39,423 nt of DNA from assembly GCF_008973825.1 (NCBI RefSeq), contig NZ_WCHR01000015.1, positions 1 through 39,423 on the forward strand. Reading direction: 5' to 3'. Under the pieces are notes generated by a model. It did no database searches. It was given only the letters and a program-made list of their open reading frames with translations, and had not been told where the DNA came from. Positions 29,638-38,554 of this stretch are shown here, one piece after another. Position numbers and translations under genes: made by a program. Every line of letters starts with the position of its first letter. The stretch's first letter is position 1. The DNA comes from Gemmobacter serpentinus. Its GTDB lineage: Bacteria > Pseudomonadota > Alphaproteobacteria > Rhodobacterales > Rhodobacteraceae.

Positions 29638-32600
29638 TCACCTCGAAATTTCCGATAGCATCGCCTCAGCCTGAGCAAGCACGCCCCTTACAGCGGCCTC
29701 TTCGAGGTCTGGTGGATAACCGTACTTCCGCAGGATGCGCTTGACGAGGACCCTCAGACGCGCCCTGGCGCTGTCGCGGTGCGCCCAGTCGATGCTGACG
29801 TTGGCCTTGAGTCCCGTCAGCAGTTCATGGGCGATGACTTTCAGCTGGTTGTTGCCGAGCACGTCAACCGCACTCTGGTTGTCGGCCAGCGCATCGTAGA
29901 AGGCGACCTCTTCTGGTGTGAGCCCGGCCTCTTCACCGCGACTTCGTGCGTCGCGAACGTCTTTGGCTAGTGCGATCAGCTCCTGAAGAACCTCTACCGT
30001 GCTGATGGCGTTGGTGTGATAGCGCGCGATAGCTTCTTCCAGCCGTTCCGAGAACTTCCGGGTCTCGATGACGTTGGAACGGCTCCGAGACCGGATCTCG
30101 TCGTTCAGCAGCTTCTTCAGGGCCTCGAGTGCGAGGTTCTTCTTATCCATCTGGCCAACTTCGGCCAGGAAATCGTCCGACAGGATTGAAATGTCGGGTG
30201 ACGACAGCCCGGCTGCAGACAAGATGTCCACAATCTCGGTCGAGGCGACAGCGTCATTGACGATCTGGCGGATCGCGAGGTCGCGGTCAGCGGCCGAACG
30301 GCCGGACGTGTCGGCCGCCTTGACCATGGCCGCGCGCACCGTCTGGAAGAAGCCAACCTCGTCGCGAACTCCGCGGGCCGTGTCGCTGGCCGAGCAAAGT
30401 GCGAACGCCTTGGAGAGTGCCAGAACTGCATCCGGATATCGGCGATGCGCTGCCTTCTTGGCCTCCTTGTCGGTTTCGCGCTGTGCGGCTTCGTCCTGTC
30501 TGGCCAGAACCCAGTTTAGCGCCTCGGCCAGCGCGACAAGTCGTTGGTGCGGGGTGCCGGTCAATCCGGCCGAGTAGTTGAAGCCGTGGAACATGGCACG
30601 CACGACATCCAGGCGTTCCAAAAGAGCTGCGACCGCTTCGCCCTCGTCGATCCCGGCCTGTTCCTGGTCCGCTTTGGAATACTGGCCCAGCGCCGACTTC
30701 AGATTCTGGGCGATCCCGATGTAGTCGACGATTAGCCCGGCAGGCTTGTCGCGGAATACGCGGTTCACTCGGGCGATGGCCTGCATCAGCCCATGGCCCC
30801 GCATCGGCTTGTCGATGTACATCGTGTGCATCGACGGGCTGTCGAAGCCGGTCAGCCACATGTCCCGCACGATCACCAGCTTCAGCGGGTCTTTCGGGTC
30901 CTTCGCGCGCTTGGCCAGCAGGTCGCGCCGGGCCTTGCTGCCAATATGGGGCTGCCAAGCCTCGGGGTCCGAGGCTGACCCGGTCATCACGATCTTTACC
31001 AGCCCGGCGCTGTCGTTGTCCGAATGCCAGTCGGGACGCAGCGCGACGATCTGGTTGTAGAGGTCGACACAGATGCGTCGGCTCATGCAGACGACCATGG
31101 CCTTCCCGTCCATCGCCTGCACCCGCGCCTCGAAATGGGCGACGAGGTCCTCTGCGACCATGCGCAGCCGCTTCTCGGCCCCGACCAGCGCCTCGACGGT
31201 CGACCACTTCCGCTTGAGCCGTTCCTGCTCGCTGACGGCCTCGTCCTCGGTAAGTTCCTCGATCTCGGCGTCGACCTTCGGCTTTTCCTCGTCGGGCAGC
31301 TCGATCCGTGCGAGGCGGCTCTCGTAGTAGATAGGCACCGTCGCCCCGTCCTCGACGGCGCGGCTGATGTCGTAGACGTCGATGTAATGGCCGAACACGG
31401 CGGGCGTGTTCACGTCGTCCTGTTCGATCGGCGTGCCGGTGAAGCCGATGAAGGACGCATTGGGCAGCGCGTCGCGCAGGTGCTTGGCGAAGCCGTAGGC
31501 GATCTCGCCGGTCTTCTCGATCCGTGCCTTGAAGCCGTACTGGCTGCGGTGGGCCTCGTCCGCGATGACAACGACGTTTCGCCGATCGGTCAGCAGCGGA
31601 TAGGCCTCGCCCTTCTCGGGCGCGAACTTCTGGATTGTGGTGAACACCACCCCGCCCGAGGCACGGGACAGCGCCTTCTGAAGGTCCTCGCGGCTGTCCG
31701 CCTGAACCGGCGTCTGGCGTATCAGGTCGCGGCACATAGAAAACGTGGCAAAAAGCTGGTCGTCTAGGTCGTTTCGGTCAGTAATCACCACGATTGTCGG
31801 GTTTTCCATCGCTGGATCACGCACTAGCTGACCCGCATAGAAGGCCATGAGCAGGCTCTTGCCCGACCCTTGCGTATGCCAGATCACTCCCGCCTTGCGG
31901 TCGCCGCCTGACCGGCTAGCCTCGACGGTGCTGGCGACCGCGCGCTTCACTGCGTGGAACTGATGATAGCCCGCGAGGATCTTCGCGAGCCCGTTTGACG
32001 TGTCGCCGAACACCGTGAAGTCCTGCATCAGCGACAAAAGGCGCGGCCGCGCAAACACACCCTCAATGAGGACCGGCATTTCTGGCGCACCCTTGGGCGC
32101 AACTTCGGCGCCATCGGTTGTGCGCCAAGGCATGAAGCGTTCCAGATCCGCTGTGAGCGAACCGATGCGGGCTTGGATGCCATCGGTCGTGACCAGCACG
32201 GCATTGACGCGAAACAGCGACGGGATCTGTGCCTTGTAGGTCTGCAACTGGTTGAACGCTGCAGCAAGCGTCGCGTTCTCTGCCCCTGGTTTCTTGACCT
32301 CAATAACGCCGACAGGCAGCCCGTTCAGGAACACTACAACATCCGGGCGGCGGTTGTTGCCGTTCTCGATCACCGTGAACTGCGCAATCGCCAGCCAGTT
32401 GTTCAGACCATCCTCCGGGTCCACCAACCGCACGGCATCGCCGCGGATCGTGCCATCCTCGGCCCGGTACTCCACCGGCACGCCTTCGACCAGAAAGCGG
32501 TGCAGACGGCGGTTCTCTTCGATGAGCGAGGGGCGATCTGAAGCAACAACCCGCCGCAGGGCATCTTCGCGTGCATCGTCAGGGATTTGTGGGTTAAGCC

Positions 32601-32769
32601 GAGCGATGGCATCTCGGAGTCGGCCTGCCAAAATGGTGTCGGAATAGGCCTCCCGCTCAGGGGCATGGCCATCGGGACCCGAGACAGCATCATTGAGGCA
32701 AGAGTAGCCCAACTGAAGGAGTTGATCGAGAAGGACGCCTTCGATTTCGGCTTCGCTCAAGGTGGTCAT
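29638..32769 (-). CDS. hsdR: type I restriction endonuclease subunit R
   Basis: Motor and nuclease subunit of 1043 residues. The PD-(D/E)XK nuclease is intact: RPDVVVF (Asp143) and VIEVKK (Glu157, Lys159). The helicase core follows: HTQGSGKS Walker A (298-305), [30 protein letters not shown] box (401-413), GFTGTP, and motif VI-like [13 protein letters not shown]. The C-terminal helical region binds the methylase complex. It translocates DNA and cuts unmodified invading DNA. It sits after the SIR2 gene with a 45-base gap and in the same operon as hsdM and hsdS. No truncation is seen. Confidence 0.95.
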
Positions 32770-32814
32770 TTGATCCCTCCCTTTCCGGAAACTCCCAATG
32801 AAAGTCTGCAGGGA

Positions 32815-33837
32815 TCAATCATGAAACCCACCTTCCATCAGGGAGATCAACAGATCTTCGATGGCTTGGTCATGGTTCTCGGGCGGATACCAGATTGGGT
32901 GAATATCTGCTGCGCCGAGTTCAGTGCGCCGTGCCTCCCGATCCAAGCCCTCGGTTAGAGGCAAAAACGCGAAGTGCCTCGGAGTTGCAACGCGCGCGGC
33001 AGCCTTCAGTTCGACAAGAGCCGCAATTGTGCGGTCAATGTTGAGACTGCATCCAAGAAAAAGCAGGCTTGTGCTGTTGATGGTGTCGCGCAGAATATCT
33101 CGATAGAGTCCCTCTGCACCATAACTGGCTTCATATTCGGCTCGAGTAAGTACGCGACCTATCGCCGTATCAGCCTCGCCGTGCAGTCGAAGAAGGCAAT
33201 GAGGTTGATCGCCTATTCGCCTCGGGGCTTCACCCAGATAAGCGCCCGCCAGCTCGAGCCTGAACCGGTTCCCCGCGGTGTTGTAAACTTCGTTCAGCAC
33301 GTAGTCGAAATTCGTTGTAACTGCCCCCCTCCGAAACACAAAGGGTAGCAGCTGAACCGGGCCCGAGATTCTCCTGCGGTGTCCAAAAGTGCTCTGAACT
33401 GCTTCGTCAAAGATCGCGGCCCCCATTCGGTCCAGCATCAGCTGGGCGGCTTCTTCGTACCGCCAGGCAGCAAGATGCGCGTCGAGTTCTGGGCGGCAAG
33501 CGGCATAGTCTGCGGTCAGCGTACGCAAGAAGTCTCCCCAAAGGGGGTAACCGGTCGACCGAGACAGCCCTGCACCCACAAAAGGCATGACGCGCTCTTG
33601 TGCGCATCTGGCGGACAACCAGTTGAATCGCTCCAGGCAACCGTACTCCTTGAGGAATTCCCGAGCACGATCCTTTGCGGCATCCTTGACGCCTTCCAGC
33701 CAGTCGACGAAGTGGGCATCGAACAGTTCAGGGGCCATGGCTTTGAACACGTCCACGCTTGGCCATTCGAAGGTTCGGATCTTCACCGGACCTTCATCGT
33801 TCAACTCATCGATGAACCGTTGACGAAAATACTCCAT
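32815..33837 (-). CDS. SIR2-like domain protein (candidate defence NADase)
   Basis: Protein of 340 residues with the SIR2-like fold of anti-phage NADases. Visible motifs: MPFVGAGLSRSTGYPLW (84-100, GAGLS nucleotide loop), TTNFDYVLN (174-182), LLRLHGEAD with the likely catalytic His219, and LGCSLNIDR (261-269). The N-terminal ~75 residues are unrecognised. SIR2 effectors in other systems (Thoeris, DSR, prokaryotic Argonaute partners) deplete NAD+ on infection; that activity here is inferred. The gene is placed inside the type I operon: it starts 2 bases after the hsdS stop and ends 45 bases before hsdR, so it is surely co-expressed. Confidence 0.85.
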   Translation of the reverse strand: MEYFRQRFIDELNDEGPVKIRTFEWPSVDVFKAMAPELFDAHFVDWLEGVKDAAKDRAREFLKEYGCLERFNWLSARCAQERVMPFVGAGLSRSTGYPLWGDFLRTLTADYAACRPELDAHLAAWRYEEAAQLMLDRMGAAIFDEAVQSTFGHRRRISGPVQLLPFVFRRGAVTTNFDYVLNEVYNTAGNRFRLELAGAYLGEAPRRIGDQPHCLLRLHGEADTAIGRVLTRAEYEASYGAEGLYRDILRDTINSTSLLFLGCSLNIDRTIAALVELKAAARVATPRHFAFLPLTEGLDREARRTELGAADIHPIWYPPENHDQAIEDLLISLMEGGFHD

Positions 33838-33839
33838 GC

Positions 33840-35155
33840 TCAGCTTGCCATCTCTTCCAGCTGAATCTGGATCTCTCCAGACATGAGACGCGGCAGCAAA
33901 AGGTCGCGGGTCTGAGCCAGGGTTCGAGATTCGCGTTCATTCTTGGCGATGCGCTCGTAGAGCGGCTTCGCTATGGCATCGAAAGCATTGAGCATCGGCT
34001 CTGGTGCGATCACTACGGGCAGCGGGCGGAAGTTGCCTTTGCTGATCTCCTGGAAGGTTGAGCCGTTCGCTTTGGCGAGGATCGCTTCCATGTTTTCCAG
34101 CGTCCAGAGCCAGGCAAAGACGTTGGACACCCGCTTGTCGCAGACCATCCCGATGAAACCCTGATTGATCGCCACCGGCACCTCGGCGATGGCGAGGTAG
34201 CCAATCGGCGCGCGGGACGACAGCAGGAGCGACCCCACGGGTAACTGGCCCGAACTGATCTTCGCAAGGCCTGCGGCGCTGATCGTCCGCGAGGTTTCAA
34301 GCAAGATGGGCGCGGCAAGGGCGGACAGATCCTTCGGTGTGGCCCAGTTGATGCCGCCGTCCCAAAGGTCCGGTTCCTTGGTGCTGGGGGTCGAGCCGCC
34401 GACAACGCGCACCTCTTCACCGATCGACGAAACCTCCCACCCCTCCGGCTTGCCATCGGCGTCCAGGCGGTCGGGGAAGAGGGACCAGAGGTCGGTGGAG
34501 AGGTAGGGGGCGCGACCTTCCATCCTGGCGCGGGTGGGGCCGAAGTCGACGAACCAGTCGCGGAACAGCGCCCGCGCCATGGCCTCCAGCGTGGCGTTCA
34601 TCTTCCGGTTCAGCTCGATCTTGTCATCCAGCGCCCCGAGGGTGGCGGCAATGGCGCGTTGTTCGGGGAGGGGAGGCAAGGAAAGTAGGTAGCTCTCGGC
34701 AAACTGGGTGTATTGAAACCGGGCAACGCCAGTGTGCTGAACGTGGTAAGGCATCATCCGGCGGGAGTGGTATTCGTCTTGGAGCTTCCAGAACAGGAAT
34801 TGCGGGTCAACGCGGTTCGGGTCAGGACGCAAAAATCGCGCAAAACTGGCGCAGACCAAAGGAAACTCAGCGGCGCCGACTACCGAAGCCGGAATGAAAA
34901 CAGACCGTCCGGTAGGTTGGTCTTTCGTTCCTCCTGCGGTTTCAATCAAGGTGTCACCAACGGCGATGGTTTTTCGCTTTAGAATGTCACTTCGGATATA
35001 TCGCAAAGGCAGCCTGTCGAGATTTCCCACTCGGACGCGCTCAAAATCCGTCCCGCGCACGACAAGCGCCGGTGAGCAACCCTCCGTGGGTTCCCCGTTC
35101 CCCCATTCGCCGTCACGGGTGAATGTCAGGAGATCGGCAAGAAGCGCTTCTTGCA

Positions 35156-35156
<1 letters not shown>
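33840..35156 (-). CDS. hsdS: type I restriction specificity subunit S
   Basis: DNA-recognition subunit of 438 residues with two target recognition domains. The first covers about 1-160, ending LPPLPEQRAIAATLGALDDKIELNRKMN, the usual conserved coiled-coil spacer. The second starts around 230 (WEVSSIGEEVRVVGGSTPSTKEPDLW) and ends with another conserved helix (AKNERESRTLAQTRDLLLPRLMSGEI). ATG at 35156 shares one base with the hsdM stop (TGATG); GTG at 35159 is an alternative. It sets the methylation and restriction site, which cannot be read from sequence alone. Confidence 0.93.
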
Positions 35157-36718
<1,562 letters not shown>

Positions 36719-36784: not shown

Positions 36785-37465
36785 CTAACAGCGGCTTGGT
36801 AGGGTTCTTTCCCACGGCCGTGCCTTCGGCATGGCATCCGTCACCTCGACCTCGCGCAGCATCCCACCCGCGATCAGCCCCTCGCGCACCCAGCCCAGTG
36901 CCTGCCACCAGTCGTCATAGCCGCGCCGGGCGGCCTCGATCTGATGGGGATGGGGAGAGAAGGTGACCGGGCAGGCCAGGATGTCGATGGTCTTCCATGT
37001 GGCGCGCGCGCCCGCTCCCCGCACCCGGATGCGTTCGGTGCCCACGACGATGGCGCCCGCATGCGTCCCATGCTGGTTCTGTTTCACGATGGTCGGCACG
37101 CAGCGCGGGACGGCGCCGGGCATCCAGTCCGGGGTCAGCCCAGTGCGGGCCAGTTCGGCGACGCGGATCGCCATGCGCTTGCCGCCGAGGCTGTCAGGGA
37201 TCCCGGCGACGGCGGCGGCGATCACCTCGGCATCCTCGTGGGTGTAGCCGCCGATCTTGTGCTGGCCGCCGTCGATCTTGCAGCCCAGCACGGCCCGTTG
37301 CAGCAGGACGTATTCCAGGCCGAAGCCGAACCCTTCCTCGGTGACGTCCGGGGGCAGGGGCAGCTCGAGCTGCGCCTGTTCGATCCGGAACGCCCATTCA
37401 AGGGCGGCCTGCACGCCCACCGCGCGCTTGATCCTGGTGCCGCTGACGCGGCCGTGGAAAGTCAT
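36785..37465 (-). CDS. hypothetical phage protein
   Basis: Protein of 226 residues, family not named. It has a well-defined pattern (GFGFGLEYVLLQRAVLGCKIDGG, then AEVIAAAVAGIP, VPTIVKQNQHGTHAGAIVVG, and YDDWWQALGWVREGLIAGG) that I recall from uncharacterised Rhodobacterales prophage proteins. No membrane segment or catalytic motif is obvious. ATG at 37465 has GAAGGA 8 bases upstream and overlaps, as ATGA, the stop codon of the second reading frame of the cytosine methyltransferase gene. Probably an early phage gene left of the original early region. Confidence 0.7.
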   Translation of the reverse strand: MTFHGRVSGTRIKRAVGVQAALEWAFRIEQAQLELPLPPDVTEEGFGFGLEYVLLQRAVLGCKIDGGQHKIGGYTHEDAEVIAAAVAGIPDSLGGKRMAIRVAELARTGLTPDWMPGAVPRCVPTIVKQNQHGTHAGAIVVGTERIRVRGAGARATWKTIDILACPVTFSPHPHQIEAARRGYDDWWQALGWVREGLIAGGMLREVEVTDAMPKARPWERTLPSRC

Positions 37466-38046
37466 GGCTGCAATCCTTCAAGGAAATCCATCTGCGCCGG
37501 GCGCTGGGCGGCATCTGTTGGCCGCCAGATCCACGGGCCCGAGGCCATGGGCAGCTGCGAGAGCGCGCCACGCATGTGCTGCTGCCAGAGGGTGAACTCC
37601 GTTGCCGAGCAGGCGCAGAGCGCGTGCCCCATGGGCCAGCCCATCAGCCATCCTACAAAGAGCGGGTTCAGCCGCCGCCGCGACCGGCCCTTCAGGATCC
37701 GCCGCGAGACGACGCGCCCATGCGAGGCAATCATCGAAGCCCAGAGCGGGCGCGAGATCGGGGCGTGTGGCAAGGACCGCGGCCCATCCGGCAAGGTCGG
37801 CTGGGCCGGGCGGGTGAAGCCCTGCTCCGCCCGGTAATGCAGCAGGTCCATCCGAGACTTGCCGTCGATGCGGATGATGCTCGCTTCCGAACTGCCCTTC
37901 CAGTTCTGGGCGGCCGGGGTCGGCCAGTGGTTCGGCAGGGCCTTTGCGATGCCCAGCGCAAGCGCCTCGGCCTTCCGGGTAAAGTCGCTGTTCCCGGCCG
38001 GGTTGTAGCGGCCGGTACCGGGGTGCAGGCTCATCGGTGTGGGCCA
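37462..38046 (-). CDS. second reading frame of the cytosine methyltransferase C-terminal half
   Basis: In the +1 frame relative to the methyltransferase, from about 38046, a long stretch reads like the C-terminal half of phage C5 methylases: WPTPMSLHPGTGRYNPAGNS, PNHWPTPAAQNWKGSSEA, DGKSRMDLLHYRAEQGF, LNPLFVGWLMGWPMG and ATEFTLWQQHMRGAL. By eye, third positions are about 85% G or C here against about 55-60% in the other frame. Its TGA (37464-37462) overlaps the ATG of the next gene as ATGA, the coupling seen throughout this phage. An ATG exists at 38034 but has no ribosome-binding site. It may be joined to the catalytic half by a +1 shift, or be an overlapping gene, or mark an indel. Confidence 0.6.
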   Translation of the reverse strand, partial: WPTPMSLHPGTGRYNPAGNSDFTRKAEALALGIAKALPNHWPTPAAQNWKGSSEASIIRIDGKSRMDLLHYRAEQGFTRPAQPTLPDGPRSLPHAPISRPLWASMIASHGRVVSRRILKGRSRRRLNPLFVGWLMGWPMGHALCACSATEFTLWQQHMRGALSQLPMASGPWIWRPTDAAQRPAQMDFLEGLQP

Positions 38047-38554
38047 GGATGAAGATCCGCAGCCGCTCGTGCGGTGCGCCGACCTCTGCCGCCGAGAACA
38101 GGCCCGCCGCAGGCGTGTAGCCCAATCCCCAAAGCTCTCGCAGGACGGTTTCAAGGCCGAGGGTGACATGCCCGGCGACGTTTTCGAGGAAGACCCATTC
38201 CGGGCGACATTCGCCGATGGCGCGCGCAACGTCGGGCCACAGGTAGCGGGGATCGTCGGCGCCGCCACGCTTTCCGGCCGCGCTGAAGGGCTGGCAAGGG
38301 TATCCGGCGAGGATGGCGTCAAAGGCGCCGCGGAAGGGCCGTGCATCGAAGCTGCGCAGATCGGTCCAGATAGGGGCCGGGGCGAAGTAGCCCGCGCGCT
38401 GGGCGGCGACGAGGACGGCGCGAGGCCAGTCCTCCCACTCGACGAAGGCGCGGGTGTGATATCCGGGTTCGGCGAGCATGAGGCCCAGATCAAGGCCTCC
38501 GCCGCCTGCGCAGAGGGACAACCCGTGCCGGGGACGTGACACCATGCCATTCAC
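37478..38554 (-). CDS. C5-cytosine DNA methyltransferase (full-length frame)
   Basis: Protein of 358 residues. C5-methyltransferase motifs: LSLCAGGGGLDLGL (12-25, motif I), GYPCQPFS with catalytic Cys87 (motif IV), FLENV (122-126, motif VI), RLRIFIL (164-170, motif VIII) and LLGNGVHPLAAAHAW (315-329, motif X). Residues 171-255 are the poorly conserved recognition region. In the first ~170 codons third positions are mostly G or C; after that this frame has weak codon bias while another frame (stop at 37462) becomes strongly biased, so the C-terminal half may be read in that frame instead. Start at 38554 or 38545. It should modify phage or host DNA; orphan, with no paired nuclease. Confidence 0.75.
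   Translation of the reverse strand: MNGMVSRPRHGLSLCAGGGGLDLGLMLAEPGYHTRAFVEWEDWPRAVLVAAQRAGYFAPAPIWTDLRSFDARPFRGAFDAILAGYPCQPFSAAGKRGGADDPRYLWPDVARAIGECRPEWVFLENVAGHVTLGLETVLRELWGLGYTPAAGLFSAAEVGAPHERLRIFILAHTDEPAPRYRPLQPGREQRLYPEGRGACAGHRKGPAEPLADPGRPELEGQFGSEHHPHRRQVSDGPAALPGGAGLHPPGPADLAGWAAVLATRPDLAPALGFDDCLAWARRLAADPEGPVAAAAEPALCRMADGLAHGARALRLLGNGVHPLAAAHAWRALAAAHGLGPVDLAANRCRPAPGADGFP

Follow-up and report, generated by a model that had tools for sequence, protein, structure and literature searches.

The DNA of one cytosine methyltransferase gene in Gemmobacter serpentinus is open in two frames, and both give C-terminal sequences of methyltransferase type. Do these frames represent two alternative ends of one enzyme, two unrelated proteins, or two parts of a single enzyme? 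The window, i.e. the whole stretch of DNA that was analysed, is 39,423 nucleotides long. The two open reading frames (ORFs), called alpha and beta, overlap almost completely on its minus strand, beta being read at +1. The ATG of beta at 38550 lies four bases after the GTG of alpha. The features of the locus are as follows.

37478 to 38554 (stop included), minus strand: alpha, the C5-methyltransferase frame, 358 amino acids, GTG start; ORF with matches to PF00145 and, to residue 336, PHROG_363
37462 to 38550 (stop included), minus strand: beta, the nested +1 frame, 362 amino acids, ATG at 38550; ORF with matches to PHROG_27243 and PHROG_1008, ATG present in 76/76 loci found by alpha alone
38030 to 38521, minus strand: alpha motifs I-VIII, the catalytic domain, residues 12-175; PF00145, profile match up to about residue 175 with the structures of HaeIII and HhaI, Foldseek match to HhaI
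37820 to 38026, minus strand: alpha codons 177-245, the PTP region, with weak constraint in alpha and strong constraint in beta (omega values); pLDDT below 50 at residues 196-246 of the alpha model
37544 to 37774, minus strand: double-coded tract, alpha codons 261-337; omega_alpha 0.19, omega_beta 0.18
37589 to 37612, minus strand: alpha motif X (LLGNGVHP); G317 and N318 do not vary among the 57 aligned alpha sequences
38035 to 38046, minus strand: first WPTP of beta, from the sequence
37915 to 37926, minus strand: second WPTP of beta, from the sequence
37624 to 37677, minus strand: beta RRLNPLFVGWLMGWPMGH, motif IX-like; aligned by hhalign to canonical RRLTPRECARLMGYPDDF, with L, N, P, L, M and G near-invariant in 70 beta sequences
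37462 to 37465, minus strand: ATGA, in which the stop of beta and the start of the gene that follows overlap; present in 31/31 aligned sequences, window included
36785 to 37465, minus strand: next gene, 226 amino acids, profile match to PHROG_9306, function not assigned

A preliminary description of this DNA had placed the double coding from about 38046 onwards, in the C-terminal half of the gene. Both frames are present there, but the beta ORF already begins at the ATG at 38550 and covers the full gene, so the double frame is not confined to that half. The GC3 values estimated by eye in the same description, about 85% in the +1 frame against 55-60% in the zero frame, are borne out by the computed values of 0.87 and 0.58 after 38046, as is the overlap of the +1 stop with the next gene in ATGA.

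The neighbours of the methyltransferase gene are type I restriction genes (HsdM, HsdS, SIR2-like and HsdR) and a gene of the phage integrase family. The type I restriction-modification set, at 29638-36718, adjoins the prophage-like methyltransferase region, and the SIR2-like protein is encoded between HsdR and HsdS. The genome contains one further PF00145 gene besides alpha. Named relatives of the locus are largely from Rhodobacteraceae, which makes a host from this family probable. We infer that the biological role of the locus is that of a phage-borne orphan modification enzyme.

Alpha has the hallmarks of a C5-methyltransferase. It matches PF00145 with an E value of 1.3e-30 over residues 12-175 and PHROG_363 with an E value of 6.5e-54 over residues 12-336, that is, through the motif X region. 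The catalytic signature of these enzymes, P86, C87 and Q88 of the PCQ motif and N125 and V126 of the ENV motif, is invariant in an alignment of 57 sequences, and so are the two residues of motif X listed above. The target-recognition domain and motif IX are not found in the alpha chain: the PF00145 match ends at residue 175, and LNP..LMGWP is in the other frame. The structure model of alpha has the catalytic fold at high confidence, a disordered stretch at residues 196-246, and a helix over and after motif X. The best structural match, found with Foldseek, is M.HhaI over about 178 columns. The catalytic domain of alpha thus resembles those of M.HhaI and M.HaeIII, but these two enzymes hold the target-recognition domain, motif IX and motif X in one frame. 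Alpha has catalytic motifs I-VIII and X, and its model contains no structured target-recognition domain.

The identity of beta is less obvious from database matches. The protein matches PHROG_27243, a family of unknown function, with an E value of 6.5e-100, and PHROG_1008, labelled DNA methyltransferase, with an E value of 2.3e-18. The latter match, together with that of alpha to PHROG_363 through motif X, agrees with the earlier statement that the same DNA gives two C-termini of methyltransferase type. No Pfam or NCBIfam family matched beta, and a beta profile gave no match to PDB sequences at an E value of 10. The AlphaFold2 model of the chain alone has a pLDDT of 66.5 and a pTM of 0.24, and Foldseek returned no structural match to it at an E value of 0.001 or better; with a model of such low confidence and no match, no fold is claimed for beta. 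A comparison of beta with canonical methyltransferases by hhalign (21 loci listed, 18 with sequence) gave one weak and short match, in which RRLNPLFVGWLMGWPMGH is aligned with the canonical motif IX, RRLTPRECARLMGYPDDF, at 44% over 18 columns (P 0.036, probability 1.4%). Members of the window's clade have beta ORFs of 362, 389 or 420 amino acids, mostly with 2, 3 or 4 W[PSQA]TP modules. The lengths differ by multiples of three bases, and both frames are preserved. No clear Shine-Dalgarno sequence was established for beta.

Is the beta frame open by chance? The alpha amino acids of 23 sequences were held fixed while their codons were drawn anew according to genomic usage. Beta stayed open in a mean of 2.1% of the recodings over alpha codons 2-140 and in a mean of 0.75% over codons 2-337. 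The openness of beta in the 23- and 31-sequence sets used here is partly by construction, because these sequences were chosen for a 362-residue beta ORF. The sample found by alpha is free of that choice. It comprised the best 80 of 151 genome loci; two could not be located and two duplicates were dropped, leaving 76 distinct loci. The beta ATG is present in all 76, and beta is open over codons 2-140 in all 76, compared to 3/76 for the third frame. Through motif IX it is open in 67 of them. Of the other nine, three reach a contig end (L508, L524, L535), three keep a full-length ORF that lacks the exact IX pattern (L512, L527, L553), and three have a changed or shortened frame (L486, L504, L556). 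The beta frame stays open even where the beta amino acids vary. It is open more often than chance predicts, and the conserved ATG and the openness of the frame in the loci found by alpha point to a beta start at 38550.

Rates of change per alpha codon position were calculated from 25 ungapped sequences (23 distinct, window included). Over codons 41-140 the third position is the fastest, over codons 181-240 the first position, which is the third position of beta, is the fastest, and over codons 261-340 all three positions are slow. Substitutions were also counted by their effect in each frame in 31 distinct aligned sequences. Within codons 261-337, 11 substitutions are silent in both frames, 60 are silent in alpha only, 47 are silent in beta only and 12 alter both proteins, giving an omega_alpha of 0.19 (0.11-0.33) and an omega_beta of 0.18 (0.09-0.38), with p of about 2e-5 for each frame. 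Doubly silent changes are still frequent in this tract, so its slow rate is not due to a low mutation rate. Codons 177-245 have an omega_alpha of 0.66 (0.39-1.63) and an omega_beta of 0.07 (0.03-0.15). Over codons 41-140 there are 408 alpha-silent changes compared to 56 beta-silent ones; omega is uninformative there, because that region has a single doubly silent change. Repeating the count with 23 sequences does not change this.

In the window's clade both frames are present and conserved, and both have been subject to purifying selection, which acts on the two together in codons 261-337, mainly on beta in codons 177-245 and mainly on alpha in codons 41-140. The preliminary description had proposed to look for homologues that keep both frames open and conserved, with rates taken frame by frame; in the 31 sequences both frames are constrained over codons 261-337. 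Its suggestion of overprinting fits this tract.

At the 5' end of the gene, in alpha codons 2-40 (38440-38554), alpha-synonymous change is unusually low. The omega values there are 0.21 (0.07-0.94) for beta and 0.04 for alpha. The low synonymous change is read as constraint on the N-terminus of beta, which is one among possible causes.

After motif VIII, change at the first codon position exceeds that at the third in 50 of 54 pairs from the window's clade, the reverse holding in 4. The same pairwise test gives 12 versus 14 of 26 pairs in a Synechococcus phage scan, 9 versus 8 of 18 in a phage K1H scan, and 7 versus 4 of 14 in a scan for Paenibacillus phage Diva. In these other clades, where the module regions align poorly, the ratio of first- to third-position change moves from 0.56 to 0.97, from 0.33 to 1.07 and from 0.56 to 1.30. 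For clades other than the window's this test is therefore no more than suggestive, with a shift of the ratio rather than a clear beta-only signal.

The arrangement is found in other phages and prophages. In phage K1H a nested gene, ORF28, is annotated inside the cytosine methyltransferase gene, ORF29. In phage Diva gp50 lies inside gp49, the nested gene being annotated as 'g49 internal gene', and in the Synechococcus phage locus a nested beta is present and unannotated. The K1H and Diva pairs belong to the same alpha and beta families, in the same phase, as the window's; their GenBank records give the annotation and state no mechanism. PHROG_1008 matches both of these nested genes (E 1e-55 for K1H and 1e-73 for Diva). 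The coliphage gene is mentioned in passing as 'Mte8-like' in PMC5582158. A search of the literature found no paper describing nested alpha/beta cytosine methyltransferases of phages; subscription journals were mostly outside that search, and absence from print is not claimed.

Four viral scans seeded with beta proteins yielded 77, 79, 60 and 80 loci. The phase census covered 334 loci, window copies included, with 339 beta-profile matches and six loci without one. The beta match overlaps an alpha ORF in the +1 phase in 322 of the 339 cases; 5 are in phase 2, 5 are in the same ORF and 7 are without alpha, three of these seven starting at a contig end. The beta domain is spanned to its end by alpha in 315, and alpha has a GN motif in 296. 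The presence of beta in these scans is by construction, since they were seeded with beta, but the presence of alpha and the phase are not. Two samples seeded with alpha comprised 80 loci each, nearest relatives only, of which 4 genome and 3 viral loci are cut by a contig end. Motif IX is at +1 in 71/76 of the genome loci and 68/77 of the viral loci. Among the exceptions, 4 genome and 8 viral loci have no IX pattern, one genome locus has it at +2 and one viral locus has it in frame.

The distribution of motifs between the frames was examined in 331 distinct genes in which a catalytic domain is followed by a recognisable motif IX. In 303 of these motif IX is at +1 and motif X is in the alpha frame. 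The remainder consists of 3 genes with both at +1, 2 with everything in one frame, 13 with IX at +1 and no recognised X, and 10 with other patterns, two of which are ordinary methyltransferases. LNP of beta and GN of alpha are 65 bases apart in 201 of the 275 genes (of 322) where the spacing could be measured. Two relatives, L238 and L247, are single-chain enzymes, with motifs I-VIII, the WPTP modules, LNPDWVECLMGFP or LSPDWVECLMNYP, and motif X all in one frame. PHROG_363 and PHROG_1008 both match them, the latter at residues 205-341 (E 2e-16) in one and 205-321 (E 1e-13) in the other. In another gene, L210, the PTP modules and IX are in the alpha frame and X is in another frame.

On the basis of the motif partition in the 331 genes, the single-chain relatives, the PHROG_1008 match and the weak alignment of RRLNPLFVGWLMGWPMGH, beta most likely corresponds to the part of such a methyltransferase that recognises the target and holds motif IX. 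Enzymes made of two polypeptides are already known in this class. In M.EcoHK31I the beta chain is reportedly encoded in another frame inside alpha, a finding attributed to Lee, Kam and Shaw in 1995; the window's beta is likewise nested in alpha in another frame. For M.EcoHK31I (YGGCCR), PMC3404938 describes an alpha polypeptide with motifs I-VIII and X, in which the target-recognition domain is predicted, and a smaller beta with motif IX. The window's alpha also has motifs I-VIII and X, a likeness by description. Motif IX is tentatively assigned to the window's beta by a weak 18-column profile match, with which the single-chain relatives and PHROG_1008 agree. Unlike that of M.EcoHK31I, the window's alpha has a disordered recognition region under almost no constraint; the PTP modules belong to beta, which spans from the start of alpha to past its end. 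M.AquI (CYCGRG), another alpha/beta C5-methyltransferase, has its catalytic part split from its target-recognition and IX part, with motif X in the small subunit, according to PMC3404938. The locus probably has the same split between catalysis and target recognition with IX, but its motif X is in the alpha frame; a partition of the AquI type fits 3 of the 331 genes (L207, L242, L240).

The reading preferred here, with a probability of roughly 0.75, is that the locus encodes one C5-methyltransferase made of two polypeptides from overlapping frames, which would work like M.EcoHK31I. The two chains would come from one message and join to form the active enzyme, in the manner reported for M.EcoHK31I. 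Translation of beta would most likely begin at its ATG, four bases after the alpha start, and end in the ATGA of the next gene. Bound to alpha, beta would supply target recognition, presumably through PTP modules that read the target, and motif IX (LNP.....LMGWP). The constant order of the modules and the existence of single-chain relatives suggest descent from a single-chain enzyme that became divided between frames, its target-recognition and IX segment having moved to +1.

Programmed +1 frameshifting after motif VIII, one of the options in the preliminary description, would instead give a second methyltransferase with another C-terminus. It would account for an offset in the same direction in 322 of the 339 matches, and the switched product would join the catalytic domain to the PTP modules and IX as in the single-chain relatives. 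That product would, however, be without motif X, a motif that 303 of the 331 genes encode in the alpha frame. Frameshifting would also have no need of an upstream beta that is open to codon 140 in all 76 loci, starts at a conserved ATG and is partly constrained over codons 2-40, and in other phage records beta is entered as an internal gene of its own. It is improbable, and it was set aside as the main mechanism on the motif X partition, the upstream constraint and the open frame. A different possibility is that alpha is a complete single-chain methyltransferase over which beta was overprinted with a separate job, for instance as a regulator or anti-restriction protein. The failure of beta to match Pfam, NCBIfam or the PDB would agree with this, the constraint on beta in codons 177-245 needs no alpha, and the start of the next gene lies inside the beta stop codon. 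Yet the region of alpha where target recognition is expected is nearly unconstrained and predicted to be disordered, beta occurs without alpha in just seven matches, and a beta-like region is part of the methyltransferase in the single-chain relatives, all of which makes a separate job unlikely.

That only one frame is real, the other being a by-product or a sequencing error, is scarcely credible. GC-rich DNA more easily leaves other frames open, and codons 41-140 of the beta N-terminus are without amino-acid constraint; but the layout is identical in many independent records, both frames are selected in codons 261-337, and the third frame is rarely open to codon 140. A local frameshift or sequencing error is ruled out by the conservation of the arrangement across these records, and coding by alpha only or by beta only is rejected, both frames being constrained and the beta frame open in loci found by alpha. 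The preliminary description held that homologues with WPTP..LMGWP in one frame, a single base apart, would reduce the case to such an error. Only two contigs and one chimeric one have that frame, and they differ by far more than a single base. Its idea that an indel had split one gene thus fails as a local error and is probably right as a statement about evolution, because the two single-chain relatives read everything in one frame and the target-recognition and IX segment may have passed into +1 through an ancient shift.

The two-polypeptide reading can be extended, with somewhat better than even odds, to a large share of the phage and prophage methyltransferases of this family. These would be dual-frame, the recognition and IX segment of a single-chain ancestor being now a nested +1 gene, so that PTP modules could be gained and lost while the catalytic chain keeps its frame; the second half would mostly be annotated as hypothetical or as a second methyltransferase. 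If the two-polypeptide reading is true, the locus is a natural two-subunit methyltransferase held in one stretch of DNA, with about 77 codons selected in both frames, and occurs in many unrelated phages. It would explain the paired, overlapping annotations of 'DNA methyltransferase', warn that single-frame gene calls lose half of the enzyme, and provide a source of many natural split methyltransferases. It would also be a well populated case in which to measure how two proteins that share their bases evolve, and the single-chain relatives would serve as a reference.

Several loci have layouts of their own. L241 (2500-3193) combines PTP modules, a variant IX (LNPDWVECLMWFP) and X in the single frame of a beta-like ORF, and the retrieved locus has no alpha match. 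In L007 (Gordonia phage Camerico) the PTP, IX-like and X segments are together in the +1 frame. L008 (Rhodococcus phage ReT1v-1) has its PTP repeats at +1, whereas its IX-like segment and X share the frame of alpha. Four loci, L059, L485, L498 and L516, contain about 36 additional bases at motif X of alpha (LGNGPRGLSRT...NPLAAA compared to LGNGVHPLAAA). The alpha frame continues past this insert in three of them; in L498 the reading past it differs.
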